Assembly (NCBI GenBank): GCA_903813345.2
Contig: CAIIXF020000001.1
Span: 9,647,598 to 9,711,597 of the forward strand
DNA: 64,000 nt
Direction: 5' to 3'
Origin: Owenia fusiformis
Lineage: Eukaryota; Annelida; Polychaeta; Sabellida; Oweniidae
Positions 12,524 through 38,586 of the stretch are shown here, piece after piece. The number at the start of each line of letters is the position of its first letter. Positions within the stretch are counted from its first letter, which is position 1. The position numbers were made by a program, and so were the translations under genes. A model generated the notes under the pieces. The model was not told the DNA's origin and did no database searches. It saw only the letters and a program-made list of their open reading frames with translations.

Positions 12524-13813
12524 CCAGAACAACGGCAACGCCAAAGCGTAGCGAATCCCATCGAACAGAGATGGCTGGCATTTTTACAAACGAATAGCAA
12601 ATATCATAAAACAACACACCAGAAAGGCCACCATTTTAAAAATGGTTGCTCACTAGCCAAGGTGTCATTAGAAGAAATAATATGCTTTTAAGTAGCCACC
12701 TCTAAAACTTGTAAAAGAACACACATAAAAATGGTGGCCATTTTTCAAAATGGCCGAGTACTCCCAAAAATTTTTATTAGACAATGTGCCATGCTTACAG
12801 TATTCACATATCAAATATGAACAAAATCGCTCTACTACTTTTTGAGTTATAGTAAAATATGTTAAAATGGCGGCCATTTTACAAAATGGCCACCTTCTAC
12901 CAAAAGTGTCATTAGAAATAGACAGTGTGCCATGCTTATAGTATTCACATACCAAATATGAACAAAATCGCTCCACTACTTTTCGAGTTATAGTAAAATA
13001 CGTTAAAATGGCGGCCATTTTCAAAACATTTTTCAAAATGGCCGCCTTCTACCAAAAGTGTCATAGGACAGTGTGCCATGCTTATAGTATTCACATACCA
13101 AATATGAACAAAATCGCTCCACTACTTTTCGAGTTATAGTAAAATACGTTAAAATGGGGGCCATTTTTCAAATTTTTTTTCAAAATGGCCGCCTTTTAAC
13201 AAAAATGTCATAGGACAGTGTGCCATGCTTATAGTATTTACATACCAAATATGAACAAAATCGCTCCACTACTTTTCGAGTTATAGTAAAATACGTTAAA
13301 ATGGTGGCCATTTTTCAAAATGGCCGCCTTCTACCAAAAGTGTCTTTAGACAGTGTGCAATGCTTATAGTATTCACATACCAAATATGAACAAAATCGCT
13401 CCACTATTTTTGTGTTACAGCAAAAATCGTAAAATGACGAGTAAAGGCCGCCATTTTTCAAGATGGCTGCCATGCGCTTCTTTAATATCTACATTTGTAG
13501 CATTATTAATGTCCTTTATAATTTTTTACATTTAAAACATATTGCTATTACAGTTTTACATATTGCACCTAAATTACTGTAAAATCGGCACTAAAATGGC
13601 CGCCATTTTGAAATGAGCCGCCATTTTGAAAATCGGCTTTTGAGCAGAACTTCTACCCCCATAGGGTATATGTGTACAAAATATGAACAAAATCGGGCCA
13701 ACGGTATTTGAGTTATTGCCCGGACGGACGTACGGACGGACGTACGGACGGACGGACGTACGTATGGACGGAGGCGTTCCCTATATCCCTCCGAACTTCG
13801 TTCGATGGGATAA
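12524..13813 (+). mobile_element. Helentron/DINE-like element P1 with (ACGG)n tail
   Basis: The start CCAGA is followed by a small hairpin (CAACGC/GCGTAG, 12534-12551) and the box TCCCATCGAAC at 12556-12566. The body has about five units of roughly 140 bp, each with AAAATGGCGGCCATTTT (near 12863, 13003, 13153, 13301) and ATATGAACAAAATCGCTCC. Then come GACGGACGTACGG repeats (13717-13770). The 3' hairpin at 13786-13810 is TCCCTCCGAAC-TTC-GTTCGATGGGA, and the end is TAA before T. The 3' right arm is the exact reverse complement of the 5' box. Core repeats plus a tetranucleotide tract are known in pearl/CvA-type bivalve elements and in DINE-1/Helentron relatives. No coding part remains. Confidence 0.8.
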
Positions 13814-14146
13814 TAACTATCTATACACCATCAATGCAAATATATGCTTTCTTCCATTCTGATACTCGTAGCATCTTTCTGTTTCACCTGAATCATCTCA
13901 GGGCTGAGAAGAAATGAGATGACATGGTTTATATTATGATGGCTTTCTTCGAGAATACATAATGCGGGCCTGAGAATGTGGGATGTCACATTCATTGCAA
14001 CACACCTTGCAACAATGTCTTATAAGGGTAATTTCTTATATTGAGAAGTTTATCATCTATTGAAATTAAATACTTGTAGCTACATGCAAGTAGCAACACA
14101 TACAAGTCTTCCATGCAGATGGCGGTGCGAATTCACATTAACAAAT
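13814..14146. other. TAF2 intron spacer, nothing recognised
   Basis: About 330 bp between P1 and the long-TIR element, with no repeat or coding content recognised. Confidence 0.5.
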
Positions 14147-16364
14147 CGTCGCGTGAGAATAACTTTGTACTAACTGCCATTTTCAAAAAAATTGAGATAG
14201 ACATGGAATTTTACTATTTGAAACACAGGCTTTCATCTCAGATACATGCCCCATCTCAATTCCCTCTCATTAAGCTAGAATTCAGATTGAAATTGTACCA
14301 TCTCCAGACAAACAGCTTATTTCTAATTTCAAATTGTCATATCTGATATCAACTGTTTCAACCAATCAACTCTCTGAGAATTGGTCATGTGACTTGCAAA
14401 ACTTGGAGTTATAACAATCTTATATTAAAACGAAGTATGCCAATATGCATGTTATTGTATCTAGAATGAAATAATGTTTTGTAACACAATACCATGCCAG
14501 TTTGCATGCCTGGCCTTTCATGTTTTAGTTTTAGAACTATTACAAGTAGATCAAAAAAATAAAATGATACAGTATGTGTAATCCCATGCATATTCAAATT
14601 ATATGCCCTCAATTACTTTTTGTATTATGGATGGTCATTGGATTATTCATGGCCACATGATATGAAATAGAATTACTAATTTCCTCGAAAACCTAAATCC
14701 TTGCTACCAGGGAAGATGAAAAGTACAAATGACCAGTTAATTAGATCATGTGAGCAGTCAAAAGCACCCTTTATCTTCCCTGCTACCAGGTCTTATAGGG
14801 GTTTGAATGGCCAAATGCAATAGAAATGCATATACGAAGCTGTCATCATTAAATGTTGAAAATGAAAGACTACTTATTTGTTTCTTCAAATAGAGTACAT
14901 AATAATAGGTCATATATACTAGATATAGTAATCAAAACAAATAGTAACTGTCATATTTTGCACTACATTGCTCAAAGGCAATCACTGTCTGTATACTATT
15001 GAAATCTCTTTCAAAATGATGTTTTATAGTTTGTGGAAAAAAGCTAAATCTATTTAAACTAGCTTTAACTTTTACTGACCATACACTATATCAATAAGGA
15101 GTTATCTTTATGTTAGTATAGTCCCTTAAAACACTTATTTTATTTTCTCTTCATCTATGATTTACTTTGCGCTTTTCACTGAACATCTGGGATCTTTTTA
15201 GTTATTTTATTAAAAGTATGTTTTTCAGATTTGTCCTTTCTTTTGTATTTTTGGGATCTTTGTTTTTAGATCGTCTACATTTTATTTTGGAAAAGTAACA
15301 AATTGGTTCAATTTCTTTACAAAGAGCCACTCTTATTCTCCACTTCTACAATTGCTTCAATTCCCAATTGTACTCCACAGAGTAGCAAACAACAGAAAAT
15401 GAATGGATAATGATAGCTGCATCCCAATGAACAAAATGTGATTACCTAAATTGAGGTTTCATCACTTTCATTAATCTAAAATGAATTAGAAATTACTTTT
15501 CTATTTTCAAATTTCTTCCATGTGCATGTAATAAAAATTGATTATGTCTTAGGCCCCAAGGATCTGAAACCTGCTGGTCAAAATGGAATTACGGACCAGT
15601 TGCAATGTTATTCTCCTATACCCAGTGAAAAAATCAACTGGTCTGTATCAAAAATAACCTGATAATGACCAGCTGACCGGCCCTTAGGGGCTACATTGTA
15701 ATGTGCTGGGAGGTTTAGGCTAAAGGGTTTATACCGAGGGAAATATGTGGGGGACCGTATTAGCATCATTGGTTTCAATGCATTGTACTTCTGCCTTAGT
15801 TTCAAAGGCAATAAATTCTTTTTGAAAGGTGTCCTGAGATTCCAAAATTAAGAAATAATTGTACTTATTTGAGAAATTGATTTTAAAGTTTTATAAATTG
15901 AATTTTCTTTATTTTATTAAATAATATTCTTTGGTTTTTGAAGATTTTTTTACAAAGCAAAACATTATTTTTCATTCTAGATACAATAACATGCATATTG
16001 GCATACTTTGTTTTAATATAAGATTGTTATAACTCCAAGTTTTGCAAGTCACATGACCAATTCTTAGAGAGTTGATTGGTTGAAACAGTTGATATCAGAT
16101 ATGACAATTTGAAATTAGAAATAAGCTGTTATTCCGGTGGGAAATTGTATCAACTCCATTTCCATAGTTTTAAAAAAGGATCTTGTAAATTGTTTCAAGG
16201 TATGATATTTCATATAAGATATCTCTAGGGTGAGACCAGGTGACATACAAAAAATCAAATTTCACATAGCAATACTAAGTAAGATACAGACCTCTAAACT
16301 TTCAAACCTTGATTTCTCAGTTCCGTAAAAATGTGAGATAGTACAAAGTTATTCTCATGCGACG
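14147..16364. mobile_element. 2.2-kb element with long inverted ends (~330-370 bp)
   Basis: The segment from CGTCGCGTGAGAATAACTTT to about 14470 is repeated in reverse orientation from about 15975 to 16364, with the two arms differing mildly. Shared words include CAACTCTCTGAGAATTGGTC, AACTTGGAGTTATAAC and CATGCATATTGGCATAC-type. The 1.5-kb middle has no recognisable protein and includes a short inverted CAGGGAAGAT pair (14710 and 14773). It is a non-autonomous long-TIR DNA transposon by structure, in the TAF2 intron. No target duplication was established. Confidence 0.75.
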
Positions 16365-17173
16365 AAATTAAGATAAGATCCATAATATGTTATCAAATGG
16401 TTAAATGCGCAAAATGTGTAGATATGTTTTCCTTAATAATGTGTGAGGAGGCCTTTCAGGCAATTTTCAAAAACGTAGTGAGAACAAGTTTGGTGGAGAG
16501 GGGAGGGGGATATCTCCCACCTCGGTCTCTCGCTAATGCCTAGGCCACATATGCGCCAGGCGCTGGCCGATGAGTAGTCATCGGCCGATTTCTAAATCAG
16601 TTTCGACAAAAATTATGTAATTCGGCAATTTTAGTTACAAAACATGAAGGTACATTATGTAAAATTTTGAAGACAATTGGTGTATATTTAATAAAATACC
16701 AGCACCAGTCCTGTTACTTTTGGAACACCCTGGAGGTGGTAAAAAAACTAAAATGAATCTGATATACACCTAATCACAAGTGAATCATCTATTAATACAT
16801 CACTCTCATTTTAATAATTACAATTCTAGATTTTGATTTATATCAAAAGTGCTCAATTCAACAGTTATCTTATAAAAGGTAAATGACATTCTATATAAGT
16901 TGCCCTAGTCATTCCACAGTTCCAGGTGTTATTTTGTGGAGCCCATGTCTTGCCACATCACACGTGGAAATGACTTTGACAAACCTTGGACATCTTTCTT
17001 TCAGTCCATGGACTCTAAAATAAGAAGAATTTGCGTTGTAGGGAGCGTAAAATTGGTTATTTTGAATGCCGCCTCTTGTATTTTTCTACCCTTTGCATTC
17101 GTTTGACTTCACTTCTTAAAAGAGAGCTTCGTCTTCACTCTTTCAAACTAAAATAAACCTGTGAACTCACCGC
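16365..17173. other. TAF2 intron sequence with a small GC hairpin
   Basis: Mostly unremarkable intron DNA. GGCCGATGA at 16565-16573 and its complement at 16578-16586 form a 9-bp stem, preceded by TGCCTAGGCCACAT. That context resembles the MITE at 20139-20266 (GCCTAGGTCACAT, GGCCG words), so this may be a relic of it. Confidence 0.4.
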
Positions 17174-17394
17174 GCCAATCAGTGTTCGTCGGCCAAATTT
17201 GACCGACGTTCTTTATATGGTCATTCCTTCTGACGTCATCGTTGAGCCCGGAATTGACCAATGACATGCGCATATTTAATTAGAACGCATTTGGCATATA
17301 TGTTTCTTCAAGCTCGCTGATTGGTGGAAGGTCAGCGCGTAGGTCAAAAGTGATTTACCCAAACTGTCAACGGTACCCGTCGTGGGGGCGGGGC
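17174..17394. promoter_or_regulatory. Promoter-like motif cluster inside TAF2 intron
   Basis: Within 220 bp there are GCCAATCAG (17174), a full cAMP-response palindrome TGACGTCA (17231-17238), GACCAATGAC (about 17255), GATTGGTGG (about 17320) and a GC box GGGGCGGGGC (17385-17394). This is unusually dense for the AT-rich surroundings. It could be an alternative promoter, an enhancer, or simply a MITE with such words. Nothing downstream on either strand proves transcription. Confidence 0.3.
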
Positions 17395-17756
17395 TACTAA
17401 ACTGTAATATGGTCTCTACTAGGCAGAGTGTAGTTTAACTAGACTCTGCTCGCAGGGTAGTATTTTTCATCTGCCTCTTGTACACAAAGTTACTGAAACC
17501 ACTGTGTATATATAAGTGCAAAATCCTATATTATACAAACATATTTGGGGTGGCAATGGTAGGTTAATTGAATTCTTCACTTTTCAGTTTCTAAGGGCCA
17601 GGAATCGTGCAAATATGAACGAGAAATATTGGACATTCAACCACCTTAATTCCTTAACAAACATCATTTTTAGATTTGACTGAAAAAAATATATGGTCCA
17701 GCAAGTGTGAATAAGTGAGTGTTGTCTGAGAGTCTAATTTATGGGAAGTGTGTGGT

Positions 17757-17885
17757 TTACCTGACCTACCAGATGTTTGAAAATCAAGGATTGCGAGTCT
17801 CATACTGCACAGTTTTTCCTCAAACTTATGCCATTCAAATTAAAACAAAATTGCCTTTCTGTTGGTGCATTGCTTTCTCGTTTTA
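17757..17885 (+). repeat. Dispersed repeat, partner of 55588-55712
   Basis: The segment CCTGACCTACCAGATGTTTG through CTTTCTGTTGGTGCATTGCT recurs with roughly 80-85% identity by eye, in the same orientation, at 55588-55712. There it lies inside a MITE with AACTTTCATAGCGTATC ends. Here the MITE ends were not recognised. Confidence 0.7.
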
Positions 17886-17961
17886 GCAGCGTTTTGGTCT
17901 TATGAGAAAGGCTTCTCATAGTTGGGGACCCAAATGCCACTGAAAGTAGGGACTCTGTAAC

Positions 17962-18162
17962 ATTTCTTGGTAAAATATCCTTCTCAAATTCCTTCTCAAA
18001 ATGAGAATATTTATAGTGATACTACCACTTTAAACATTTGAAGATAAGTCAAATAAATCAAAAAATAAATCAAGTAAAATTCTTGCTATTTCTTGGTAAA
18101 ATATCATACTTAAATTCCTCTTCAAAATGAGAATATTTATAGTGATACTACCACTTTAAGCG
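17962..18162 (+). repeat. Two ~75-bp direct repeats 126 bp apart
   Basis: TTTCTTGGTAAAATATC and the following TGAGAATATTTATAGTGATACT-type stretch occur at about 17962-18036 and again at 18088-18162 with few changes, giving a short direct duplication in the intron. Confidence 0.8.
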
Positions 18163-18888
18163 TGGGAGGATGTATACTATAAAAGGTAAACATGAATTCT
18201 ATTTTGAATAAGATGTTTTTGTTTGTCCTGACCAAGACATACACACACACATGTACAAGGTAAGAGGCAACATAATATTAACATATTTATTAATCATCAA
18301 GGATGATACTATAAGAGAGAGAGAGAGGTAGGTGTGTTAGAATTGTGTTGAAATGTTCAGTCAAATGTGAAGCACTGATCACAAAAGGCTACTAAAGTTT
18401 TGCATCAAATGGGAATAATATTTCTAGTGTCTCGCCATTTTTTCCACACTATTCACTGAACAATGAACATGTGCCGCGTTGTTTAACAAATAAAATTGGA
18501 AGTGACACATTTTTTGAAACCTCACACATTTTCACAACATGAATTCACAATAAAATTAATCAATTAGAAATTCAATACAATATAATTTTCACATGAAGGT
18601 GTGGAACTAGTATACAAGGATTCAAGATAATAAATGCAAATTCAATGTTCTCAATTTTATCTCAAGTGGGTGCAGAACTCTTATTTTTCATAATTAAAAC
18701 CAACTAATATAATAAATCAAATGTCGATTTCTGATAAAAACAACTTAAGTTAAAGAGAAAAAGGTAAAAATTTATGTTGCAAACTAATGATCAATTATTC
18801 CCGTAGTTAAAGGCATAAGCTTCAAATTAACCAGTAATTCAATTATCTTTGACTTAGTTAATGAATGTTTTTGTTAAAAATAACTTAC
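18163..18888. other. TAF2 intron sequence, nothing recognised
   Basis: AT-rich intron upstream of the second visible coding exon. It holds only very short CA (18240) and GA (18315) runs. Confidence 0.5.
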
Positions 18889-18941
18889 CACATACGACTT
18901 GGTATTGAAATTGAAGCCTGTGATGCAGAGTGTCTGGTGTG
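18889..18941 (-). CDS. TAF2: TAF2 exon (first seen): HQTLCITGFNFNTKSYV segment
   Basis: The minus-strand acceptor TTTATTTCCAG precedes CA-CAC-CAG; the donor is GTAAGTTA. The 53-bp exon encodes HQTLCITGFNFNTKSYV, matching vertebrate HQVVCINNINFQRKSVV (from memory), and ends in phase 0 exactly as the next exon needs. Its first two bases (CA) fit the ACA Thr codon expected before His, so an upstream exon ending in phase 1 with A is predicted. That exon, with the start codon, was not found between here and the right edge. Confidence 0.92.
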
Positions 18942-20138
18942 CTGGAAATAAAAAAAGTGATAATGATGTTTAATCATTTTTAATGACACAAAACAAACAC
19001 TATAGTTTTTCATCATGATGATTATTATGATTTCAATAAAATTATAAATTATCAAATTAAAGACATACAGATCCTCAGATTACGTGCAGTCATGGTAGCA
19101 TCAAACTTAAAATAATAGGTAACAAAAATGATGCATGCTTTAACTGCACAGTGTTCATGCGGTTTATATTACACATTTCAGAAAGTTGTCCTGAGATGGT
19201 GGTAAAAATACAAAGAGTTATTAACATGAGGACCATTTAAGTGTGGTGCTTCACTGTGGATAAACCCATCTAACCGTAAAACTAAAAATAAATGCCATGT
19301 ATTCAGTTATGCACACGCTTCTGAAAAAAGTTTCATGTGAAAAGGTAGCACAAGTTCAACAGTAGTCAAAACAAGGATCAGAACCCACTTCTTCAACAGG
19401 ATAAAATTCAGCTGGATTCAAAATTACAGTATGTAGGATATTTATTTGTAATTACTAAAGAAATTAATTGTGAAAAGAAACAATCAAAATTACCTCTATA
19501 ATGAATATGGTCCTCTACAGTGCTGGTATATATTAATTGATCAGTCGTTTAATTGGCATATTTTCTTGAATTTTAACATTTAATGTTCCAAACTCCCACA
19601 AACTGCTGAAAAGTATACACCATAAATCATATTTACCAAAATTAGTGTCTCCAAGGCTTCACACCAGCGTATGCATTATGCATTTGTCATGAGTTTGAGC
19701 TGAAATTTCCCCAAAATGAAGTAGGCTAAGGGTGGTCTCTGCCAGGTTTGTTTATTGTGGTAAGCTTGTAAGTGCTCAGAAGCAAATAATTCATGTGCGC
19801 AAAACAATCAAATAATCTGATTGGTTTAAACTTTGCTGCACATGCGCACAATGTGTGCCATGTTTTTTTCTAGTGATTTCGTTTCGTTTCGTGGAGTTTC
19901 CGTTTCAGTGTAACTTCCGCAAAAATGGCTGACCATAGACAGAATTAACAGGTAAAATCACTTCAAAGTTTCAAGAGAACTTTTACCTATAATAGCAAAA
20001 CTTTTGTTTTATTTGTGCATTCTATCTATCAGATAAGAGTCTCAGGGGTATGTAGGCAAATTCATTTTGGTAGGAGCACTCTGTTTAGTTTGAAAACGCA
20101 CCCTTAATTATCATATATCAGCACTATACTTATGCCTA
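18942..20138. other. Upstream TAF2 intron or 5' flank, nothing firm
   Basis: No coding exon of TAF2 was recognised. Around 19850-19960 the sequence has an unusual run of TTTCGTTTCGTTTCG followed by AAAATGGCTGACC and a possible plus-strand donor (AACAG before GTAAAA near 19955). It could be a non-coding first exon, but nothing supports it further. Confidence 0.35.
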
Positions 20139-20266
20139 GGTCACATTTGCTGCGATTCAACGGCCGGCGCCCGGCCAATTGAGTATTTTGTTCAAAATTG
20201 AATACATTTCTGAACAAAATACTCAATCGGCCGGGTGCCGTAGTGAAAATCTGAGCAAATGTGACC
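20139..20266. mobile_element. 128-bp fold-back MITE
   Basis: GGTCACATTTGCTGCGATTC at the left and CTGAGCAAATGTGACC at the right are inverted, and inner GGCCAATTGAGTATTTTGTT pairs with AACAAAATACTCAATCGGCC. The whole unit can form one long hairpin. No coding content. Confidence 0.85.
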
Positions 20267-21386
20267 ATCATGACATTACAGGTTGTTCAATAAGTCTTAA
20301 TACAACTAATCTTTTATGATTCATTTATATTTCCAAATCATTTCGATATATCTAAATAAATTCAATAGATAAATGATTACTCGGCCTTAAATTTGGTTAA
20401 AAGACCTTCAAAACCAAAATGTGGTCATGATTATATTGATATTATCCCAAGATTATTGTGTTACCTGTACAATACACCCAGTGATAGTTCTCATATTATG
20501 GAGATCAGTCATCAGCGTGATATTTTTCCAAAAATCATTATCAGCCAAATGACAAAAATGGTAACCAAAATAGAAAAATAATACATTTCTGTAAAAATCT
20601 TTAGTTTCCCTGAGATAAAGTATGCAGTTTGGAGATTTTTCAGAAAATTGACAAAAATATTCTAAAATTGAAACATTTTTATTCAGCTTGCTCCCTATAT
20701 CTGATAAACTATCAAATTTAATTTCCCAAATACAAAGTCATTCACACATATCAATGCCTTGCCACTCTATGTAAGGAGAACTTGATAAACAAAGTCAAGG
20801 ACAAGCGGTCAGGGTCTGTTTCAGTCGTCATTTGTGAAGTTTTATTTCATTTCTATTATCTTATTTCCCAAATTCTAAGAATTATTTTTTTTTCAAAACA
20901 AACAAGGCACAATGTACCTTATAAGTCAAATGCAACATTAATCTTGTGGATGTATGATCCAAGTATCATGTATGCTTTGCAAAATGCAGCATTAATTTAT
21001 AACAAGAGGAGGGAAACCCCAGAGTTCCTAGATGACTTCATAATTACCTCTCTTGATTACCACCTCCCATTTGTCACAAGATTTCTACCATCTAGTATAT
21101 CTAAATGCCATACGTTGATGCAATGTTTTAATTGATGTAAACATATTCATTGTATCTTTCTTCATCTTGACATGAAATAGCAAGCTATAATATTGGTAAA
21201 TATGCCAGAAGAATTCAACATTACTACTATATATTAATTGACACAATTTTACAAAATGTTAAATCCGCCATTTTGTTTCTGTTAGCCCCCATGTTATTTG
21301 ACCAATCAGCCATGAGGCCCATCTCTACATGAAAGTCCACTGAAGCGAGGTCATCTCTGAACTCTGGGGGTTTTCCTCCTTTCATT
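20267..21386. other. No recognised feature
   Basis: An open frame of 117 codons at 20782-21135 on plus has no recognisable motif or splice context and is not called a gene. The stretch 21290-21380 (CCATTTTGTTTC to GGGTTTTCCTCC) is unclassified. Confidence 0.4.
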
Positions 21387-21885
21387 AGAGAGATTTCGCA
21401 CATAAGTGAAAGTACAACTTATACATATACGTATACTTTAAAGGGTCATGTCGAACTATTATATTTACTAAAATCAATTTTAAATTGTACTAATGGAACA
21501 TGGAACTAGAGACTGTGAATGCACTGTCATCTGCACGTGTAGATTATGCACCTTATCAGGGTTCGAACTTAACTTTTTAGACTGGTAGTGAAAATAGTTA
21601 CCTGACATTTTTTCTAGGTAACTAAATTCCAAAGTAAGGTAGTTTTTTTACCGGTTGAAAAAATTTCGATAGACACAGTTTTCCTTGACACTAAAAACAA
21701 ATCTAATGATCTGTTGATCTCAAGTTTATTATAGTTTACAAAATAAACCCTCCCCCTTTAATATGACATTAAAATAAGATATAAAAAGAACTGGATCATA
21801 CAGGACTATCCTTCTTTCCAGAATGATAGATATAGATATATTTGCCTCAAAAAATAGTATTTTTCTGACTCAAAAGTAAATAGAA

Positions 21886-23027
21886 CTAGAAAAACAGCAA
21901 CTCCACGGAGTAGCAAATCCCACCGAACAAAACATGTTTTGATAAAAAATTTGAGCCAAATTCATCGACTGGTATTTGAATTATCAAAGATTATGTTTTT
22001 ATGAAACATGGTTGCCATTTTGAAATTCAGCTGTCATCTTTAGATTTCTTCTTTAGCAGAGAATGTCAGTCCAATGGTATTTGGGTTATCAAAGATTACT
22101 TTTTTAATGGCAGCCATTTTGAAATTCAGCTAACGCCTTTAAAATTTCTTCTGAAGCAGACCTCCTTTTTCCCTAAACATCAGCATATAAAATTGGAACC
22201 AAATCCATCCACTGGTATTTGAGTTATCATTAATAACATTTTTTTACGAAAAATGGCGGCCATTTTGAAATTCAGGGGCCATCTTGAAAATTTATTTTTG
22301 CGCAGAACTTCTTTGTCTCTAGGCATCAGCATATAGAATTTGAACCAAATCCGTCAACTGGTATTTGAGTTATCAAAGGTTACGTTCTTTTATGAAAAAT
22401 GGCGGCCATTTTGAAATTTAGCTACCACCTTGAAAATCCCTTCTCGAGCAGAGCTCCTATGTTCCTAGGCATCATCATGTAAAATTTGAACTAAATCCAT
22501 TCAATGGTAATTGAGTTATCAAAGATAATGTTTTTTATGAAAAATGGCCGCCATTTTGAAATTTAACTGCCATCTTGAAAATCCTTTCTCGAGCAGAGCT
22601 CCTATGTCCCTAGGCATCAGCATCTAAAATTTTGAAATTTGATGGCCATCTTGAAAATGTCTTCTTGAGCAAGGCTCCTTTGTACCCAGGCAACAGCATA
22701 TAAAATTTGAACCAAATCCATCCACTAGTATTTGAGTTATTAAAGATTATATTTTTTCCGAAAAATGGCTGCCATTTTGAATAAAGTGGCCATATTGAAA
22801 ATTCCTTCTCGAGCAGAGGTCCTACATCCATAAGGCATAAGCCTATAAAATTTGAATGAAATCCGTCAACCGGTATTTGAGTTATTGCCCGGACACACGA
22901 ACGGACGGACGGACGAACGGACGGAAGAACGGACGGACGGACGAACGGACGGACGGACGAACGGACGGACGGACGAACGGACGGACGGCTTTTCTATATC
23001 CCCCTCGAACTTCGTTCGGTGGGATAA
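21886..23027 (+). mobile_element. Helentron/DINE-like element P2 with (ACGG)n tail
   Basis: Same build as P1. AA precedes CTAGA; then a hairpin GCAACTCCACGGAGTAGC (21898-21914) and the box TCCCACCGAAC (21918-21928). Four or more core units of about 145 bp follow, each with AAAATGGCGGCCATTTTGAA or a close variant (near 22249, 22397, 22540, 22763) and CATCAGCATATAAAATTTGA, then (ACGG)n with GACGAACGG (22890-22988). The 3' hairpin at 22999-23024 ends GTTCGGTGGGA, and TAA precedes T. The box and the 3' arm are exact reverse complements and differ from P1 at one paired position. Confidence 0.82.
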
Positions 23028-23029
23028 TT

Positions 23030-24145: not shown

Positions 24146-24366
24146 CAGGGTGTTTCATAACGAGCATCTCCAAAAAGTCAATTTGAGAAGAGATGGGTCT
24201 ATAACATATGTACTATATATGAGTCTATTTTATTCTAGACAAACACATTTGGATCAACTAAACATGCTACCATTCAAGAAAGTACAAATGGCATCCCTTT
24301 GACCTGTATTTATTACAGTCCGAGAAGATCTTTCCTGACGAAATGCCCACATTATGAAACACCTTG
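24146..24366. mobile_element. MITE with CAGGGTGTTTCATAA ends
   Basis: CAGGGTGTTTCATAA at 24146-24160 and TTATGAAACACCTTG at 24352-24366 are inverted with one mismatch. Size 221 bp, non-coding. Ends of this kind are common in small DNA transposons; the superfamily is not fixed. Confidence 0.75.
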
Positions 24367-26330: not shown

Positions 26331-26522
26331 CCTGACTGGCCATATAAATAGAATTCACAACGAAACCCTAATTAACTCATAAATAATTTGCGAACAAACT
26401 ATATCTCTATTCTTATTCAACAAGGTTTGATTCGAAAGCACATACTTAATGATCAATTAATAAAGTTAATCCATAAAAAATAATAACAGCAACGGGCGAA
26501 ACATGAATGTCATAAATGTCAT

Positions 26523-26700: not shown

Positions 26701-29297
26701 CATTAGTCTTGCAGTAGATAGGGTCTCTAGACAAGACTCAATGAACACTACAGTCTGTTAACTGTTAAAAATAACTAGAAATCGAAGATTGCAAGCAATC
26801 TTAAGGAGGCCCCGACCTTTTGACCTTTTGGAGTTCAGCAGGTCGAAGGTCACCGAAGGTCAACCAAAGGTCGGAGGTCAAAAGTAAGGACATATTTGAG
26901 TTCCTGAGATCTTGTAGATGATTTTTAAAAAAAAATCTGGTTTATTTGAAGCAAGTTGAAAAATGACCGATTTTTGCCGATTTTTGACGTCAAATATCTC
27001 AAAAACGGTAAAAAATTAACGCGTACATATAGTGAGCAATTTGTAGAGAATGCTTATATCTAGTTACATTTTAATTCATCGCAAGAAATAATGAAGTATG
27101 AGGACGAAATCTGAGAAACTTAGAAAACACAGTTTGTGATCTTGTTTGATGACCTTGACCTTTGACCTTAAAAATTTTACTTTTTTAGACCTCAATATAT
27201 CTTTTCTGATTGAATAAACTTTAATTTGAATCCAAGAAATCAATTTAAAAAATCAACTTTTTTTACCTTTCGAAGGTCACTGAAGGTCAAGTAAAGGTCA
27301 AAGGTCAAAACTAAGGTCAGATTTGAGTTCCTGAGATCTTGTAGATGCATTTTAAAAAAAAGTTTGGTCAATTTAGAGCAAGTTGAAATTTGACCTTGAA
27401 AAATTTCGAAATTTGACCTTTTTTCAGTTTTTGAGTTCTAATATCTCAAAACTGGAGCAAAATTTTAATAAATTGTCAATTGCTAATATGTGTAGAACCT
27501 TAAGATGAATATATATTCTGACTTTCAGTAAAAAAAATTGATTTGTAGTCTCCAATTTTGAGAAACTTAGAAAACACAGTTTGTGATTTCGTTTGATGAC
27601 CTTGACCTTTGACCTTGCAAATTTTACTTTTTTAGACCTCAGGAGGTCTCTTGTGAATAAATATACCTAAATTTGAATCCAGAAAATCGATTTGAAAAAT
27701 CAACTTTTTTGACCTTTCGGAGGTCACTGAAGGTCAACCAAAGGTCAAAGGTCAAAAGTAAGGTCAGATTTGGAATCCTGAGAATTTGTAGATGAGTTTT
27801 TAAAAAAAATTTGGTCAATTTGAAGCAAGTTGAAAAAAGACCTTTTTTGACCTTTTTTTGACCTTCAATATCTCAAAATCTAGGCAAAATTTCTCTAGAC
27901 GGCAAAAGGTTAAGACTAATAGAATCCTAATATCTATCTGTATGCAAAAATTCAGCCAAAAATATTGAAGTGTAGTGTCAGGATTTGAGAAACTTAAAAA
28001 AAACTTAGATTTGACCAAGATTTTGACCTTTGACCTTGACCTAGATAAAAATTCCTTTCCCGCCAAGTTCAGCCTAGGTCCCTAGTAGGGTTATGTAGTA
28101 GCTAGCTGAAAGCTAGTTGGAAGTAGGAGAAAAAGGTTTAGGAAGAATAAATAAAGAATAACTAGATGTATAAGATTGCAAGCAATCTTACGGAGGCCCC
28201 GTAGGCTTTTTGAACATTTAAAGGTCAGCCAAAGGTCAAATCTTAAATACAAGGTCATATATGAACTCCAGGCATCCTGTAGATGATTTTTAAAAAAAAG
28301 TTTGGTCAATTTGAAGCAATTGGTGCAGAATTTTAATAGATAATCAATTGTTAATACGTGTAAAACCTTTAGAGGAATATATATCCTGACTTTAATTCAA
28401 AAATATTGATTTGTAGTCACAAACTTTGAGAAACTTAGAAAACACAGTTTGTGATCTTGTTTGATGACCTTGACCTTTGACCTTGAAAATTTTACTGTTT
28501 TAGACCTCAGTATATCTTTTCTGATTGAATAAATCTAGATTTGAATCCAGAAAATCAATTTGAAAAATCAACTTTTTTGACCTTACAAAAGGTCACTGAA
28601 GGTCAACTAAAGGTCATAGGTCAAAACTAAGGTCAGATTTGAGTTCCTGAAATCTTGTAGATGCTTTTTAAAAAAAAGTTTGGTCAATTTAGAGCAAGTT
28701 GAAATTTATCCTTGAAAAATTCCGAAATTTGACCTTTTTTCAGTTTTTGAGTTCTAATATCTCACAACTGGAGCAAAATTTTAATAAATAGTCAATTGCT
28801 AATATGTGTAGAACCTTTAGAGGAATATATATTCTGACTTTCAGTAAAAAAAATTGATTTGTAGTCTCCAATTTTGAGAAACTTAGAAAACACAGTTTGT
28901 GATTTTGTTTGATGACCTTGACCTTTGACCTTGCAAATTTTACTTTTTTACACCTCAGAAGGTCTTTTGTAAATAAATGTACCTAAAGGGGACATGCCAT
29001 TAAGAGGCCATTCTCGGACTTAGTCATTTTTTCAAAAGTGTGAAAATAAAAAACCTCATGAAAAGTTCTTAAAATATCCTGAATAACAAGTTGAATATAT
29101 ATATTTAATGATGGCACAAGCAAAAGTCTGAAAATTAACATGAAATGAGGGGTTTTGACTGATGCAAAAAATGGTAGATTTGTGATGAAGAAATAGAAGT
29201 TTTTGCAGTAACAACACAATTACCTCGAAGTTATCAGTTATGAGAGGCTGAGGACTAAACTTGACATAATACTCAATCTCAGATTATCAGTAGTATC

Positions 29298-29327
29298 ATG
29301 GGCTTTCAATCTAGTTGAAAGCCCATG
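29298..29327. mobile_element. 30-bp hairpin with 8-bp direct repeats
   Basis: ATGGGCTTTCAA and TTGAAAGCCCAT form a perfect 12-bp stem around TCTAG-type loop bases. The unit is flanked on both sides by GTAGTATC (29290-29297 and 29328-29335). The same stem sequence appears as a perfect palindrome at 41160-41185 and its two tandem copies. It looks like a complete micro-insertion or the scar of a larger element. Confidence 0.75.
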
Positions 29328-30310
29328 GTAGTATCTAACTTAAGCCGGACAGCCACTCAAAATGTATATGGAGCCCATAAGATACATTTTTCTCAATTGA
29401 AATCACTATTTCTGTTTTTAGCTTCAGAGGATAGGAAGTACATGAACATGCTAAGTTTACCTAGATCACAAGCCTTACCACAAATATAAAGTATATAGGA
29501 ATAGAGTTGATATGTGTGAGAACCTTGAACTTCCCATTTTATTGGGGATGGGACTTGTGATTCATGTGTATTTCGAACTTCTTCACATGTGCATGGATCT
29601 AAAATTGTGGCAGCCATCTTGGATTTGTCATATATGTGGACATGGTTTTGGTTGTGCTGAATTTGTTTCAAAATAACATTTCTTGTATACATACGATAAG
29701 TGAGATAGGCATTTGAAATTAAATACAGATAGCATACTTGACATTTAATGCAGTAAACAGTATACAATAATTCATTCTTACATAATAAGTGAGTCCAGAC
29801 AAAAAGTTGTTATTGTGTTAGTTTAACTGGGCATAAATTACACTCATTGGGCTTGGTTTTCTTAATTGGCTTGGATAAAATGTTGTTCTATTTATTCAGA
29901 AAAGGAGTATAGTTCAATATACAAGTTCACATTCATTCCATCCTCTTGTAGAAATGAATCTCATATTACTTCATCTCGAATATGGAACACAAAAATATAA
30001 TAAAAAAACAAGTTTCTATTAATTGTAAAAGTTAGCTTCCATGTCATGACTGAGTTTGGGTTCCGCTTCTAGAGAAAAAAGATATTCCCTCTAGAAATAT
30101 CGTATTGACCATTGCTATACACTCCATATTTAATCCTCCCTGTAAATAACATTGATATACAGTATAAATATGACACCGAGGATCTGGAGTTTGGGTAATG
30201 TGAGACATGAGTTGCTACTTTTGAATCTCATATTCAATATTCTTTCTTTAAAACCTCATATTTAATATTTTTGGAGTGGTAATTCAATTATTTACCTATT
30301 TGTTATTCTT

Positions 30311-30571
30311 CATCCCATAGTTTGGCTCTGTTCCGCTATGTTAGGTAACATGAAAACATATTTATGATATTTTGCAAATGCGTGGAAAAAGTGATATCTG
30401 TGGAATACGGCAAATATTTCACAGATATCACCTTTGCCAGGGATTTGAAAACTACCACCAATATGATGTGTTTTGTTACATAGTGATTTCATGACATTAC
30501 GGGGATGAATGAATAAATAGATGTTGTTTTGATATGTTTTGTTTAGTTTTATAGGTGAACTATGGGATAAA
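30311..30571. repeat. Inverted-repeat segment with central 12-bp stem
   Basis: CATCCCATAGTT at 30311 is mirrored by AACTATGGGATAAA at 30558. Inside, GTGATATCTGTG (30391-30402) and CACAGATATCAC (30420-30431) form a perfect stem. Probably a small MITE. Just outside, TTGATATCAATATC and GATTGATATCAA (30617-30672) form another inverted pair. Confidence 0.65.
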
Positions 30572-31748
30572 TAGAACATCCTATGATTGTTCGTGATATC
30601 GTGTTAATCCACTCATTGATATCAATATCTGCGCTAATTGGCTATACTAACTTGGCAAGATTGATATCAACTCGGAGATAAAGATAAAATCATTTAAAAT
30701 CATATGATATCCTATACATATCCTTTACTGTGCCACAACTTTCTCATATGTTATATTTGGCACAGGCCATCATTAATTTTCCTTGAATTCATGCTTTTGT
30801 TCCTCGTTTTAGAAATGAGAGGAAATCTTTGATTTTCCTTGTATTTGAGTTGCTTAAATGTTGCCCTGTTATGTGATAAAAGTCAATAGTATCCACTACA
30901 GTCACAGTTGAAATGTACCCATTGCTAGCCCAGAACCTACCAAAATAGCATTTGCATTTTGCCAATATTGCCCTATGTGCTTTTCCATGAAAATAGTTTT
31001 AATCGTATCTTTTCTTCAGTATTTCATATATTGCATTTTAATATATTAAATTGGTTTATATTTATATATCATTTACTTAGACTGCAATAAATAAAGATTT
31101 TTTTGTAAAAACTCCAAAAATGGTATATGATCTTTAAATGACATCAAAGCTCAAAATTCGCTGAAATTGTAATTTTATAAAGCACAAATGATTTTTCTTC
31201 AATATGATATGCATTATTATCAGATATCTTTGGGGGCTAAAAAGGGCCCTTATTGACACCCGTCCTTTGAATCCAGAAAATCGATTTGAAAAATCAACTT
31301 TTTTGACCTTTCGGAGGTCACTGAAGGTCAACGAAAGGTCAAAGGTCAAAAGTAAGGTCAGATTTAGAATCCTGAGAACTTGTAGATGAGTTTTAAAAAA
31401 AAATTTGGTCAATTTGAAGCAAGTTGAAAAAAGACCTTTTTTGACCTTTTTTTGACCTTCAATATCTCAAAATCTAGGCAAAATTTCTCTAGACGGCAAA
31501 AGGCTAAGACTAATAGAAGACTAATATCTATCTGTACGCAAAAATTCAGCCAAAAATATTGAAGTGTAGTGTCAGGATTTGAGAAACTTGAAAAAAACTT
31601 ACATTTGACCTAGATTTTGACCTTTGACCTTGACCTAGATAAAAATTCCTTTCACGCCAAGTTTAGCCAAGGTCCCTAGTAGGTGCATATAGTACATAGT
31701 TGAAAGGTAGTTGGAAGTAGGAGAAAAAGGTTTAGGAAGAATAAATAA

Positions 31749-33218
31749 CTAGATTTTGGAAATTGAACGAAGTTCAATTTCAGACTCCAGATCTAGACTT
31801 TTTTTAGCCGAGTCATCCAGAATAAGCCGAGTCATCCAGAATAAGCTGAGTCATCTAGAAAGAGATGGATAAATAAAATAGGAAGGTAGGATAGGATAGA
31901 ATAGGAAAGAACGATAGGATAGAATAACAAAGAAGGATAGGATAGAATAGAACAGGAAGAAAGGATAGGATAGGATAGGAAGGAAAAGATATGAGGGAAG
32001 GATAGATAGGAAGGATAGGGTAGGATGAGAAAGGAAGGATGGATGAATTTTTCAATATTTTCTTCTCTACTCTTGACTTTCTATCAGGATACCATCAGAT
32101 CGATTTTTCTCGAAATTTCAAAACGCTATCACTTCCGAACCGGAAGTCGGATCGAAATTTGGTTTGCAGATTCGGATTCCTGACAAAATTCTACCCCTAA
32201 TTCATAACTCATACGTTAAATATGGAGATTTTTTATTTTGACCTACTTTTCGGACACGCCATAACTTCCGCACCGGAAGTCGGATCGAAATTTGGTTTGC
32301 AGATTCGGATTCCTGAGAAAATTCTATACTTAATTCATAACTCAAACGTCAAATTTGGAGAACTTTTTATTTTGACCTACTTTTCGGACACCATATCTCA
32401 AAAGTGGGTCAAAATACTTTCTGACGGCAAAAGGCTAACACTATTAGCATATTCTTGGCTACATGTATACACAATTTCGAAGAATATAATTAAAGTGTAG
32501 TGTCAGAATCGAAAAAATAAGGAAAACCTATGAATTTGACCTAGATTTTGACCTAGGCATTTCGGTGTCCAAATTGTGAAGCAAGTAGGCTTTTAAGGTC
32601 CCCTTCTTTTAAAGGCTTTGATTATATGAAGCTGAACTCAGTCTATATTCCGTATTTTTCACTTCAAAAAAATATTTTTTCCCATTGACTTAACATGGGC
32701 ACCAAATTTAGCGATTTTTGAGTTTTCAAAACGCCATAACTTCCGGACCGGAAGTCAGATCTAAATTTCGTTTTCAGATTCGGAATCCTGAGAAAATTTC
32801 CTATAAGAGTAATATCCTGGACATTTGATTCGGAGAACTTTTTTTTGGACCTCGTTTTCGGACACTGATATCTCGAAATCGGTTTGAGATATCAAAAAAC
32901 TAAATCGACCCTGGGTTTCCTACTTTTTTATAAGGAACACAATGAAAAAAACCCGGATAGAAAATATTGAAGGACGACCGAGAAAATCGAAAAAAGTGAC
33001 AAAGTACTGGATTTGACCTAGTTCTTGACCTTTGACCTAGATAAAAATTTGACCCAATTTCCGAGGAACTAGATTCTGGACCTAAATTGACCAAATGACT
33101 GACTTTACTAAAAACCTTATGGTTATTGAGAAAACTGGTTTAGAATAATAATAATAAGAAGAATAAGAATAAGAAAACTGGCGAAAACAATAGACTCCAG
33201 ATTTCATCTGGAGTCTAA
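31749..33218 (+). mobile_element. Helentron-like element F1
   Basis: The start is CTAGA (31749), the 5' hairpin TTGAAC-GAA-GTTCAA (core of 31760-31780) and the box AGACTCCAGAT (31782-31792). The body holds a GGATAGGATAGGAAGG-type microsatellite (31860-32045), repeated blocks with ACTTCCGAACCGGAAGTCGG (near 32130, 32265, 32740) and GACCTAGATTTTGACCT. The 3' hairpin at 33192-33216 has arms AGACTCCAGAT and ATCTGGAGTCT and is followed by AA before T. No coding content. It sits in the AAT-rich tail of E2. Confidence 0.78.
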
Positions 33219-33233
33219 TAATAATAATAATAA

Positions 33234-35223
33234 CTAGACTTTGGAAATTGAACGAAGTTCAATTTCAGACTCCAGATCTAGACTTTTTTTAAGCCCAGTC
33301 ATCTAAAATAAGCCGAGTCATCCAGAATAAGCTGAGTCATTCAGAATAAGATGGATGGATAAAATAGGAAGGTAGGATAGGATAGAATGGGAAGGAACGA
33401 TAGGATAGAATAAGAAAGAAGAATAGGATAGAACAGAATAGGAAGAAAGGATATGATAGGAGAGGATAGGAGAGGATAGGAAGGAAAGGATACGAAGGAA
33501 GGATAGATAGGAAGAATAGGATAGGATCAGATAGGAAGGATGGATGAATTTTTCAATGTTTTCTTCTCTACTCTTGACTTTCTATCAGGATACCATCAGA
33601 TCGATTTTTCCGAAATTTCAAAACGCCATAACTTCCGAATCGGAAGTCGGATCTAAATTTGATTTAAAGTTTCGGATTCCTGACAAAATTCTACCCCTTA
33701 TTCATAACTCATACGTCAAATTTGGAAACTTTTTATTTTGACCTAGTTTTTGGACACGCCATAACTTCCGAACCGGAAGTCGGATCGAAATTTTAATTGC
33801 AGATTCGGATTCCTGACAAAATTCTACACCTAATTCATAACTCATCCGTTAAATTTGGAGATTTTTCTTATTTTGACCTACTTTTCGGACACCATATCTC
33901 AAAAGTGGGTCAAAATACTTTCTGACGGCAAAAGGCTAACACTATTAGCACACTATTGGCTACATGTATACACAATTTCGAAGAATATAATTGAAGTGTA
34001 GTGTCAGAAACGCAAAAATAAGGAAAACCTTTGAATTTGACCTAGATTTTGACCTAGGCATTTTGGTGTCCAAATTTTGAAACTAACTGGCTTTTGAGGT
34101 CCCCTTCTTTTGAAGGCTTTCATTAAATTAAGCTGAACTCAGTCTATATTTCGTATTTCTCACTTCAAAAAAATCTTTTTTTCCCATTGATTTAACATAG
34201 GCACCAAATTTAGGGATTTTTGAGCTTTTAAAACGCCATAACTTCCGAACCGGAAGTCGGATCAAAATTTGTTTTGCAGATTCGGATTCCTGAAAAAATT
34301 CTACCCCTATTTGATAACTCATACCTTGAATTTGGAGAACTTTTTATTTTGACATACTTTCTGGACGCCATTTTTCAAAATCGGTAAGAGTAATCAAAAA
34401 ACGGATGGACACATATGAAAGGGCTGTTTCTAAGCTACATGATGAAAAAAGATGAAGACGTTTCGATAAATAACAACGAAGATAATAGACAGAAGGTTGA
34501 AAATGTAAGATTTGACCCAGTTCTAGGATAAGATAGGATATAGAATAGGAAGGAAGGATAGGATAGGAAGGAAGGGATAGGAAGGAAGGATAGGATAGGA
34601 AGGAAGGGATAGGAAGGAAGGATAGATAGGAAGGATATGATCAGACAGGATAGGAAGGAAGGATGGATGATTTTTTCTATATTTTCTTCGCTACTCTTCA
34701 CTTTCTATAAGGATATCATCAGATCGATTTTTCTTGAAATTTCAAAACGCCATAACTTTCGAATCGGAAGTCGAATCGAAATTTTGTTTGCAGATTCGGA
34801 TTCCTGAGTAAATTCTACCCTTAATTCATAACTCAGATGTTAAATTTGGAGAACTTTTCATTTTGACCTACTTTCTGGACGCCATATTTCAAAATCGGTA
34901 AGCGTAATCAAAAATCTAATGTCATATCTTTGCTTTGGCTTTTTTTAAGCTACATGATGAAAAAAAGATTTAGGAGTTACGATAAACAACGAAGAAGATA
35001 AATGACAGAATGTTGAAAATGTAAGATTTGACCTAGTTCTTGACCTTTGACCTAGATAAAAATTTGACCCAATTTCCGAGGAACTAGATACTGGACATAA
35101 ATTGACTGACTAATGATCTTTATTGGAAGCCTTATGGTTATGGAGAAAACTGGGAAAGAATAATAAAGAATAATAAGAATACTGACGAAAACAATAGACT
35201 CCAGATTTACATCTGGAGTCTAA
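33234..35223 (+). mobile_element. Helentron-like element F2
   Basis: Placed directly after F1 in its AATAATAATAATAA tail. CTAGA is at 33234, the same 5' hairpin at 33245-33265 and the box at 33267-33277. The body has GATAGGAAGG microsatellites (33352-33545 and 34525-34665) and ETS-type palindromes near 33630, 33763, 34240 and 34757. The 3' hairpin at 35196-35221 has arms identical to F1 with one extra loop base. Closest relative in the window is F1. Confidence 0.78.
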
Positions 35224-35287
35224 TAATAATAAGAATATCTATAAAATTAATAGGAGGCCCCCCGTTGGGGCCTCCTAATAATAATAA

Positions 35288-38200
35288 CTAGACTTTTGAA
35301 GATTGCAAGCAATCTCACGGAGGCCCTCTTAGGCATTTTTGACAATTTGAAGGTCAACTAAAGGACAAATATCAAATCTGAGGTCAGATGTGAACTCCTG
35401 AGAACTTTTAGATGACTTTCAAAAAAAGATTTTGTCAATTTGAAGCGAGTTTAAATTTGACCTTGAAAAATTTCGAAATTGACCTTTTTCAACTTTTGAA
35501 CTCTTATATCTCAAACTGGGACAAAATTCTATTAGATAGTCAATTGCTAATATGTGTACAACCCTTAGAGGAATGTGTATATTTCGACTCCGGATTAAAA
35601 ATATTGGTTTGTAGTCGAACTTTGCGTAACTTAGATAGCACAGTTTGTGACCTAATTTCATGATTTTGACCTTTGACTTTGAAACGTTTTACATTTTTAG
35701 ACCTCAGTAGGACTTTTGTAATTAAGCTCACCTAAATTTGAATCCAAAGACTCAATTTGAAAAATCAACTTTTGTTACCTTTCGAAGGTTATCGAAGGTC
35801 AATTAAAGTTCAAAGGTCAAATCTGAGGTCAGATTTGGACTCCTGGGAACTTGTAGATGAGTTATAAAAAAAGATTTGGTCAGATTGAAGCAAGTTGAAA
35901 AATGACCTTTTTTGACCGTTTTTTTACGTCAAATATCTCAAAAACGGTAAAAATTTAATGCTGACATATAGTGAACAATTTGTAGAGAATACTAAAATGT
36001 AGTTTCAGTTTAATTCATCGCAAGAAATAATGAAGTATAAGGACAAAGTTGAGAAACTTGAAAAAAATTTAGATTTGACCTAGATTTTGACCTTTGACCT
36101 AATTTGATAACCGTGACCATTGACCTTGAAAATGTTACTGTTTTAGAGCTCAGTAGGTATTTTATGATTAGGCTAACCCTAAATACTGAAATATGAATCC
36201 AAACACTCAATTTGAAAAATCAACTTTTCTGACCTTTCGAAGGTCACTGAAGGTCAACTAAAGGTCAAATGTCAAATCTGAGGTTAAATATGAACTCCTG
36301 AAAAGTTGTAGATGATTTTTAAAAAAAAGTTTGGTGAATTTGAAGCAAGTTAAAATTTGACCTTATAAACTTTGAAAAATTGACCTTTTTCAGTTTTTGA
36401 GCTCTTATATCTCAAAACTGGGAAAAAAATTTAATAAATAGTCAATGACTAATATGTGTAGAACCCTTAGAGAAATGTATATCTTGACTTTCAATTAAAA
36501 ATATTGATTTGTAGTTTTGAACTATGAGAAACTTAGATAGCACAGTTTGTGACCTAATTTAATGACATTGACCTTTGACCTTGAAATTTTTACTTTTTTA
36601 GACCTCAGTAGGCTTTTTGTAATTAGACTGACCTAAATTTGAATCCAAAAACTCAATTTGAAAAATCAACTTTTCTGACCTTTCGAAGGTCACTGAAGGT
36701 CAACGAAAGGTCAAAGGTCAAATTTGAAGTCAGATTTGGACTCCTGGGAACTAGTAGATGATTTTTAAAAAACAATTTGGTCAGATTGAAGCAAGTTGAA
36801 AAATGACCTTTTTTGACCGTTTTTTGACGTCAAATATCTCAAAAACTGTAAAAATTTAATGCTGACATATAGTGAACAATTTGTAGAGAATACTTAAATG
36901 TAGTTTCAGTTTAATTCATCGCAAGAAATAATGAAGTATAATGACAAACTTGAGAAACTTGAAAAAAATACAGATTTGACCTAGATTTTGACCTTTGACC
37001 TAATTTGATAACCGTGACCCTTGACTTTGAATATTTTACTGATTTAGAGCTCAGTGGGTCTTTTATGATTAGGCTTATCTTAAATTTGAAACCAAAAACT
37101 CAATTTGAAAAATCAACTTTTCTGACCTTTCGAAGGTCACTGAAGGTCCACTAAAGGTCAAATGTCAAATCTGAGGTTAAATATGAACTCCTGAGAAGTT
37201 GTAGATGATTTTAAAAAAAAAGTTGTGTGAATTTGAAGCAAGTTAAAATTTGACCTTATAAACTTTGAAAAATTGACCTTTTTCAGTTTTTGAGCTCTTA
37301 TATCTCAAAACTGGGACAAAATTTTAATAAATGGTCAATGACTAATATGTGTAGAACCCTTAGAGAAATGTATATCTTAACTTTCAATAAAAAATATTGA
37401 TTTGTAGTCTTGAACTATGAGAAACTTAGATAGCACAGTTTGTGATCTAATTTGATGACCTTGACCTTTGACCTTGAAATTTTTACTTTTTTAGACCTCA
37501 GTAGGCTTTTTGTAATTAGACTGACCTAAATTTGAATCCGAAGACTCAATTTGAAAAATCAACTTTTCTGACCTTTCGAAGGTCACTGAAGGTCAACTAA
37601 AGGTCAAATGTCAAATCTGAGGTTAAATATGAACTCCTGAAAAGTTGTATATGATTTTTAAAAAAAAGTTTGGTGAATTTGAAGCAAGTTTAAATTTGAC
37701 CTTATAAACTTTGAAAAATTGACCTTTTTCAGTTTTTGAGCTCTTATATCTCAAAAGTGGGAAAAAAATTTAATAAATAGTCAATGACTAATATGTGTAG
37801 AACCCTTAGAGAAATGTATATCTTGACTTTCAATTAAAAATATTGATTTGTAGTTTTGAACTATGAGAAACTTAGATAGCACAGTTTGTGACCTAATTTG
37901 ATGACTCTGACCTTTGACCTTGAAATTTTTACTTTTTTAGACCTCAGTAGGCTTTTTGTAATTAGACTGACCTAAATTTGAATCCGAAGACTCAATTTGA
38001 AAAATCAACTTTTCTGACCTTTCGAAGGTCACTGAAGGTCAAGTAAAGGTCAAAGGTCAAATCTGAGGTCAGATTTGGACTCCTGGGAACTTGTAGATGA
38101 TTTTTAAAAAAAAAATTGGTCAGATTGAAGCAAGTTGAAAAATGACCTTTTTTGACCGTTTTTTGACGTCAAATATCTCAAAAACGGTAAAAATTTAATG

Positions 38201-38524
38201 CTGACATATAGTGAACAATTTGTAGAGAATACTTAAATGTAGTTTCAGTTTAATTCATCGCAAGAAATAATGAAGTATAATGACAAACTTGAGAAACTTG
38301 AAAAAAAACTTAGATTTGACCTAGATTTTGACCTTTGACCTTGACCTAGATAAAAAATATTTTCCCCCCTATTCCAGCCCAGGTGTCTAGTAGGAGCATA
38401 TAGTAAGTAGTTGAAAGCTAGTTGGAAGTAGGAGAAAAATGCTTTGGAAGAATAATAAATAAAGAATAAAGAATAAAGAAAAGCTACAAAAGCTATAGGA
38501 GGCCCTTTCAGGAGGGCCTCCTAA
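35288..38524 (+). mobile_element. Helentron-like element E3 with ~446-bp tandem units
   Basis: The start is CTAGA (35288), the 5' hairpin AAGATTGCAAGCAATCT (35299-35315) and the box GGAGGCCCTC (35319-35328). The body is about seven units of 445-448 bp: CAACTTTTCTGACCTTTCG recurs near 36221, 36667, 37115, 37560 and 38006, and a relative is near 35766. Two unit types alternate irregularly: one has GAGGTTAAATATGAACTCCT, the other TTTGGACTCCTGGGAAC and TTTTTTGACGTCAAATATC. The 3' hairpin at 38497-38522 has right arm AGGGCCTCC, matching this copy's own box rather than that of E1/E2. Confidence 0.78.
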
Positions 38525-38586
38525 TAATAATAATAATATCTATAAAATTAATAGGAGGCCCCCCGTTGGGGCCTCCTAATAACAAC

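Follow-up and report, generated by a model that had tools for sequence, protein, structure and literature searches.

Matched subterminal repeats at the two ends of Helitron2/Helentron-type elements in Owenia fusiformis

Several mobile elements lie close together, some apparently inside others, in a 64,000-nucleotide stretch of the Owenia fusiformis genome (contig CAIIXF020000001.1, positions 9,647,598 to 9,711,597 of the forward strand; here called the window). Their ends are built alike but differ in sequence, and the locus raises the question of whether the two ends of each element are kept matched to one another and, if so, by what. The original prediction listed seven elements with one end design, and all seven were found in the window together with the boxes and reverse-complementary arms quoted for them. 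In each, a hairpin and a box accompany a CTAG-type end, and the terminal arm at the other end is the reverse complement of that box. The placement is asymmetric: the reverse complement of the box lies 2-3 nt from one terminus, and the box itself lies 30-33 nt from the other.

All seven elements are on the minus strand by the convention used below. P1 (12524..13813), a non-autonomous Helentron (HINE), shows its conventional 3' end first on the plus strand, with CCAG, a hairpin and the box TCCCATCGAAC (12556-12566); its 5' subterminal repeat comes last as GTTCGATGGGA (13800-13810), followed by TAA. P2 (21886..23027) belongs to the same family and has the box TCCCACCGAAC (21918-21928) and the arm GTTCGGTGGGA (23014-23024). 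P1 holds 4.9 central repeats of 147 bp and a CGGA microsatellite, and P2 holds 3.6 central repeats of 146 bp and an ACGG microsatellite. The 3' part of E1 (26775..28161) starts with CTAG, a hairpin and the box GGAGGCCCC (26805-26813), and the 3' part of E2 (28162..31748) has the same box at 28192-28200; from about 28990 to 31265, the interior of E2 is non-E-like as judged by eye. Neither E1 nor E2 is closed before the next element starts. F1 (31749..33218; box AGACTCCAGAT at 31782-31792, arm ATCTGGAGTCT at 33206-33216), F2 (33234..35223; the same box at 33267-33277, the same arm at 35211-35221) and E3 (35288..38524; box GGAGGCCCT at 35319-35327, arm AGGGCCTCC at 38513-38521) each have both ends. 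When starts and ends are read as brackets, their order and sequence suggest a Russian-doll nesting, in which E1 would hold E2 and E3, and E2 would hold F1 and F2. Therefore, the far end of E2 is probably the segment at 35253..35278, with a hairpin and the arm GGGGCCTCC (35267-35275), and that of E1 the segment at 38554..38579, with the same arm (38568-38576), displaced by the nested E2 and E3. The guests of E1 and E2 would each sit in a TAA-rich stretch, directly inside the far-end hairpin of the host.

When reverse-complemented, the window elements read TTA, repeat, local partner, body, repeat, hairpin and CTAG. The 5' repeat and its local partner can fold together; the fold is fully paired by prediction in the E1, E3 and F strings and imperfect in 42 of 42 P copies. 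The 3' hairpin is separate from the 5' one and close to the 3' end. Published Helitron2, Helentron and HINE elements are likewise described with a 3' partner repeat 20-60 bp in from the 3' terminus and a hairpin of its own in the intervening stretch (PMC4067079, PMC3627910). In 41 of 42 P copies, an A precedes the aligned CTAG-type end, as would be expected of insertion into TT on the other strand; the opposite end is TAA in 41 of 42 copies, found with a search pattern that favoured TAA. By this published anatomy, the seven elements are of the non-autonomous Helitron2/Helentron (HINE, DINE-1) type, and the DINE-1/Helentron kind had been named correctly. The 5' and 3' labels given at first were swapped, because in the literature the hairpin-forming subterminal repeat marks the 5' end and the CTAG end is 3'; what had been called a 5' hairpin and box is the conventional 3' end. 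Helitron1, with 5' TC, 3' CTRR and neither a 5' hairpin nor inverted repeats, was ruled out by the presence of inverted repeats and a 5' hairpin. A CTAG 3' end would by itself agree with the CTRR of Helitron1.

Next, the ends were counted in the genome. The P-type 3' end, with the box left free, had 3102 matches (≤2 mismatches) against 0 for a reversed-pattern control, and therefore the P end design is not a product of chance. The 5' end of P had 3888 matches (34 in the control) and the box side 5950 (286 in the control). For family E, 224 hairpins, 423 5' ends and 498 box ends were found with controls of 0, and for family F, 928 hairpins (≤2 mismatches) with a control of 0. A scan that assumed no particular end sequence, covering the fetched loci and the window, gave 66 candidates against 23, 17 and 14 in three controls and was set aside as evidence: about 41 of the candidates were recognized by eye as P or F, the remaining 25 or so were near the control level, and E was missed.

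A search for an autonomous element with the same ends had been suggested. Helitron_like_N matched the genome at 58 places, and at 23 of these the open frame is 3000-3377 aa long. DUF6570 lay ahead of Rep in all four windows scanned, and PIF1 matches were found about 2 kb downstream of Rep in frames of the same stated length. The Rep contains a PHVH motif, which we take to be a mark of HUH Reps; one Rep region compared with solved structures gave no match at E 0.01. The endonuclease domain that names a Helentron had no match in the stretches scanned, which were four windows, each about 1197 aa long, and a tail of 71 aa; the Pfam scan of that tail returned only a sub-threshold zinc-finger match. 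Sequence was read over 3.6 kb around Rep at 30 loci and over 5.3 kb of two copies.

E ends on the coding strand bracket the Rep-PIF1 frame at four of the 58 matches. The Rep at C1:21115714 is in a 35-kb stretch (C1:21095497-21130669), with an E start 20.2 kb upstream and an E end 15.0 kb downstream; the corresponding distances are 20.4 and 18.9 kb for the Rep at C6:36035560 (39 kb, C6:36015150-36054464), 20.0 and 9.0 kb for that at C12:19514795 (29 kb, C12:19506392-19535422), and 25.7 and 17.4 kb for that at C500:38021 (43 kb, C500:12335-55423), where an additional E start is found 35.2 kb upstream, plus further ends. The 4.5 kb adjoining the open frame at C1:21.11 Mb held no terminal repeats; the E ends there are 20 kb and 15 kb from Rep. 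These places came from 100 of 105 and 100 of 109 E matches, and the four loci were chosen after the lists had been viewed. Given 109 E starts over 498 Mb, any one 6-kb window on a given strand would hold a start with a probability of 6.6e-4, and bracketing of four of the 58 Rep matches by chance would be very unlikely, bearing in mind that window and loci were picked after the fact. The C1 and C6 copies have different sequence ahead of the CTAG end (29 and 27 bases read), evidence against their descent from one large duplication. The E-ended Rep-PIF1 stretch of 29-43 kb is therefore a likely source of E mobility, although the length and unity of each element are deduced from its ends; according to a review, maize Helitrons reach 39 kb. 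In the C1 copy, the 3' repeat is 24 nt from the 3' terminus. The Rep frame of the E-ended coding element runs on the strand first assumed for the elements, that is, reversed relative to convention, and reversed RepHel frames are on record (PMC4067079, PMC5148889, PMC3627910). Around the other 54 of the 58 Rep matches, some of them on short contigs, no bracketing E ends occurred among the matches listed. A coding partner for P or F was not seen: no P or F end among the matches listed was near either of the two Rep matches in the range that these cover (C1 and the start of C2), the listed P places reaching only into C1 and the listed F places to C2:7.2 Mb.

We then asked whether box and arm change together in family P. 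Arms were matched to boxes by place and strand, with the box within 2.5 kb, among the matches listed (100 arm places and 100 box places); 42 of the 61 arms in the range of the box list were paired and 19 were not. At position 6 of the box, the arm base was complementary in 38 of these 42 paired ends. The matched pairs had box T in 23 cases, A in 8 and C in 7, and the discordant ones (box base/arm complement) were T/A in 2, C/A in 1 and A/T in 1; two arms, of which one was discordant, shared a single box (C1:6970557), and one discordant pair was just 107 bp apart. The A/T state was absent from the window and was taken from the genome lists. Mutual information, the measure proposed at the outset, was 0.948 bit at position 6, a value reached in 0 of 5000 shuffles; at the other five positions tested (3-5, 7 and 8) it was at most 0.053 bit, with little variation there. 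The covariation is thus strong, and the two ends of P are kept matched across the sampled copies. The three matched states represent few independent events (at least two changes) inherited by many copies, a relatedness that the shuffles leave in. One copy had a matched change at position 7. Positions 7 and 8 together had 8 unmatched changes; by hand count, 6 of these were CG to TG or CA, as decay after insertion predicts. Matching therefore looks like a property of the subfamily, set before amplification and unrestored in dead copies.

What reads the matched ends was a separate part of the original prediction, which favoured a replicase that recognizes structure rather than sequence. One Rep could instead bind the same DNA sequence at both ends, with each subfamily served by its own Rep and no end-to-end pairing needed. 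This explanation is a real possibility, at somewhat worse than even odds. The 30 fetched loci contain at least two Rep-helicase groups, about 65% alike in DNA where aligned, and the matched changes run along subfamily lines; therefore, each family could have its own Rep. Other diagnostic bases also differ between the P subfamilies. On the other side, a single base of the P box takes three of the four possible values with its complement kept, which fits pairing better than sequence recognition. The match kept in P fits either pairing or a single protein that reads both repeats, with the three values at position 6 leaning towards pairing; the predicted preference for structure is a possibility that has position 6 of P as its one argument.

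The 5' repeat of P has two potential partners, the box at the far end and the local partner beside it. We compared both in a second set of 42 complete, distinct copies from the loci and the window, read letter by letter with overlapping loci counted once; this set overlaps the place-paired one. Box and arm matched perfectly in 30 copies, with one mismatch in 5, two in 5 and three in 2 (mean, 0.50), and none of 10000 shuffles reached 30 perfect matches, the highest value being 24. The local hairpin, in an ungapped comparison, was perfect in 0 of 42 copies and had a mean of 3.05 mismatches; opposite arm position 6 it mostly placed C to A (15), T to G (20) or C to T (4). Therefore, it is the end-to-end match that is kept in P. 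The predicted DNA energies of the local hairpin were -6.0, -4.9 and -4.4 kcal/mol for P1, P2 and P3, against -13.5, -14.5 and -13.7 kcal/mol for the matched end-to-end duplexes and -9.7 to -11.7 kcal/mol for mixed ones, the duplex values leaving out the cost of bringing distant ends together. Since the duplex is predicted to be stronger than the local hairpin, a switch from hairpin to duplex is plausible in P. For the E1, E3 and F strings, the predicted values were -10.0 to -11.0 kcal/mol for the hairpin and -12.3 to -12.8 kcal/mol for the duplex. The match might also be copied rather than selected, if template switching during rolling-circle replication renewed one repeat from the other. The predominance of perfect matches in P (30/42) would agree with such copying, as would frequent events at the 5' end, which the nesting and the stacked ends indicate; the hairpin partner beside the 5' repeat, however, has not been renewed along with it (0/42 perfect), and we consider this explanation improbable.

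Family E behaved differently. An E start was paired with an E end if that end came next after it and no more than 9 kb away, which gave 45 pairs from the 100 starts and 84 of the 100 ends listed; nesting can mis-pair some of them. At position 9, box/arm combinations among these listed matches were T/A in 21, C/G in 10, T/G in 11 and C/A in 3, a concordance of 31/45 (Fisher p 0.019, with no correction for relatedness). Box T with arm G, found in 11 of 45 pairs, breaks the proposed Watson-Crick pair, and the E-ended coding element on C1 itself has this T·G combination (box GGAGGCCCT, arm GGGGCCTCC). At the varying position, the local hairpin pair holds in 37 of 45 ends against 31 of 45 for the box (hand count, ungapped); the 8 of 45 ends in which it is broken are of the CTTGAAGGG and CCTGGAAGGG kinds, and the box pair is broken in 14 of 45. 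The hairpin partner in E thus follows the arm better than the box does. E supports covariation weakly, and the difference between E1/E2 and E3, real in the window, does not extend to a firm rule for the family. F1 and F2 have the same box and the same arm, and F, invariant in the window, is hence uninformative on covariation. That the pair changes in step and the two ends are kept matched was accordingly borne out for P, and does not stand as a firm rule in E, where box T with arm G is common. Accidental matching of unrelated terminal repeats, by chance or simple descent, could call on the window alone for its two one-base differences (P1/P2 and E1-E2/E3) but is extremely improbable given the copy numbers against a control of 0 and the three-state concordance in P.

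Matched ends, compensatory changes and a pairing model are already published: Bao and Jurka (2013; PMC3627910) described two related Helitron2 elements whose ends differ by compensatory changes, and put forward a model in which the two repeats pair, the 5' hairpin is thereby lost and the endpoint of replication is fixed. Among the papers searched, none reported compensatory changes under the name Helentron; the known case stands under Helitron2 (PMC3627910). The Helitron2 elements described there also share with ours a short inverted repeat at the very 5' end that forms a 5' hairpin, a partner repeat 20-30 bp from the 3' end directly before the 3' hairpin, and, in some elements, a RepHel in reverse orientation. 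In contrast to that description, the match here was measured over dozens of copies and in three states; all 42 P copies had an imperfect local hairpin, with an end-to-end match that was usually perfect. Thomas et al. (2014; PMC4067079) defined Helentron families by identical subterminal repeats of at least 11 bp. Helentron, HINE and DINE-1 elements as described there share with ours the 3' stem-loop, the central repeats and the subterminal inverted repeats, which measure 13 bp in DINE-1 and 12-15 bp in the HINE of mites, and DINE-1 also the local inverted partner near the 5' repeat; the T-rich or TT target described for them would agree with the A that precedes the P end. Unlike those Helentrons, E has repeats of only 8-9 bp, and the stretches scanned gave no endonuclease match. 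The Cg_HINE/pearl elements of bivalves (PMC7492417), likened here by their description, have the same order of 5' repeat, local partner, GTCC-type microsatellite, central repeats, 3' repeat and palindrome. Some oyster Cg_HINE combine the GTCC microsatellite with central repeats, as does P (146-147 bp), in which the microsatellite adjoining the 5' repeat is of the GGAC type (GTCC on the conventional strand). FoHeli elements of Fusarium (PMC5148889) also have asymmetric inverted repeats, and FoHeli1 and 2 have a hairpin at each end; they differ in end sequences and 3' terminus; self-insertion was proposed there as a source of composites with several 5' ends.

Altogether, we put a probability of roughly 90% on the reading that these are HINE-kind elements, in the orientation given above, mobilized in trans, a reading in which end-to-end pairing of the repeats is the proposed part. 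An HUH-type Rep-helicase, probably supplied for E by the coding element with the same ends, would mobilize them. Once replication reached the second end, the two repeats would base-pair as single strands, and the end-to-end duplex would displace the local hairpin, as in the Bao-Jurka model; the need to pair may be why the match is kept. A more specific proposal is offered tentatively, as rather unlikely in its full form: the replicase may require that the ends be paired and not any particular base at position 6, which could be T, C or A if its partner follows, and the terminal hairpin may serve mainly as a weak lock opened by the end-to-end duplex.

Beyond the published case, the present analysis contributes the scale of its test, three matched states, a contrast in P between the end-to-end match and the local one, the exception of E, and the location of a likely coding partner for E. 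In the literature accessible to us, the choice of the second end by Helitron2 and Helentron elements is still a model. With thousands of end matches, three states and an imperfect hairpin, P separates end-to-end pairing from local-hairpin pairing, and P1, P2 and P3 ends, matched or mixed, are ready-made substrates. If the more specific proposal is true, the end pair would be a self-addressing tag that prevents termination at the end of another element in nested arrays.

In the Owenia fusiformis genome, the ends of the E family of non-autonomous Helentron/Helitron2-type elements were often found close together. Among the matches listed on contig C1, 27 of the 58 E 5' ends, which carry the hairpin, lay no more than 150 bp from a second 5' end of the same strand, as at C1:20765732-20765930 and C1:43330218-43330402; the window holds an instance of its own at 35253-38579. 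Among the same C1 matches, another E start, the CTAG-type end, lay within 4 kb for 43 of 76 starts, and only 7 of the 76 followed an E 5' end at a distance of 150 bp or less. It seems that newer elements insert into older E elements at the TAA-rich sequence immediately internal to the 5' hairpin. The E copy that begins at window position 28162 was interrupted by a segment of about 2.3 kb that, as judged by eye, does not resemble E (window 28990-31265). Elsewhere in the window, positions 4001-6000 were strongly purine-rich (GC skew, 0.68; AT skew, 0.77).

In a P-family copy at C1:2382774-2383979 (fetched as loci L006 and L079), the box TCCCACTGAAC and the arm GTTCAGTGGGA were both altered at position 7, and the two changes matched. 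This matched change may represent two independent CG decays.

Tandem repeats of about 155 bp each, as estimated by eye, form an array at C1:21119800-21122000 (locus L092). It starts past the end of the Rep-helicase frame, within the putative E-ended coding element. Several Rep-helicase open frames, tens of kilobases apart, were present on each of contigs C13, C505, and C515, and a DNA comparison showed that the two C505 loci compared were 99.9% alike over 3.6 kb. The Rep-helicase frames of these three contigs are a young expansion.
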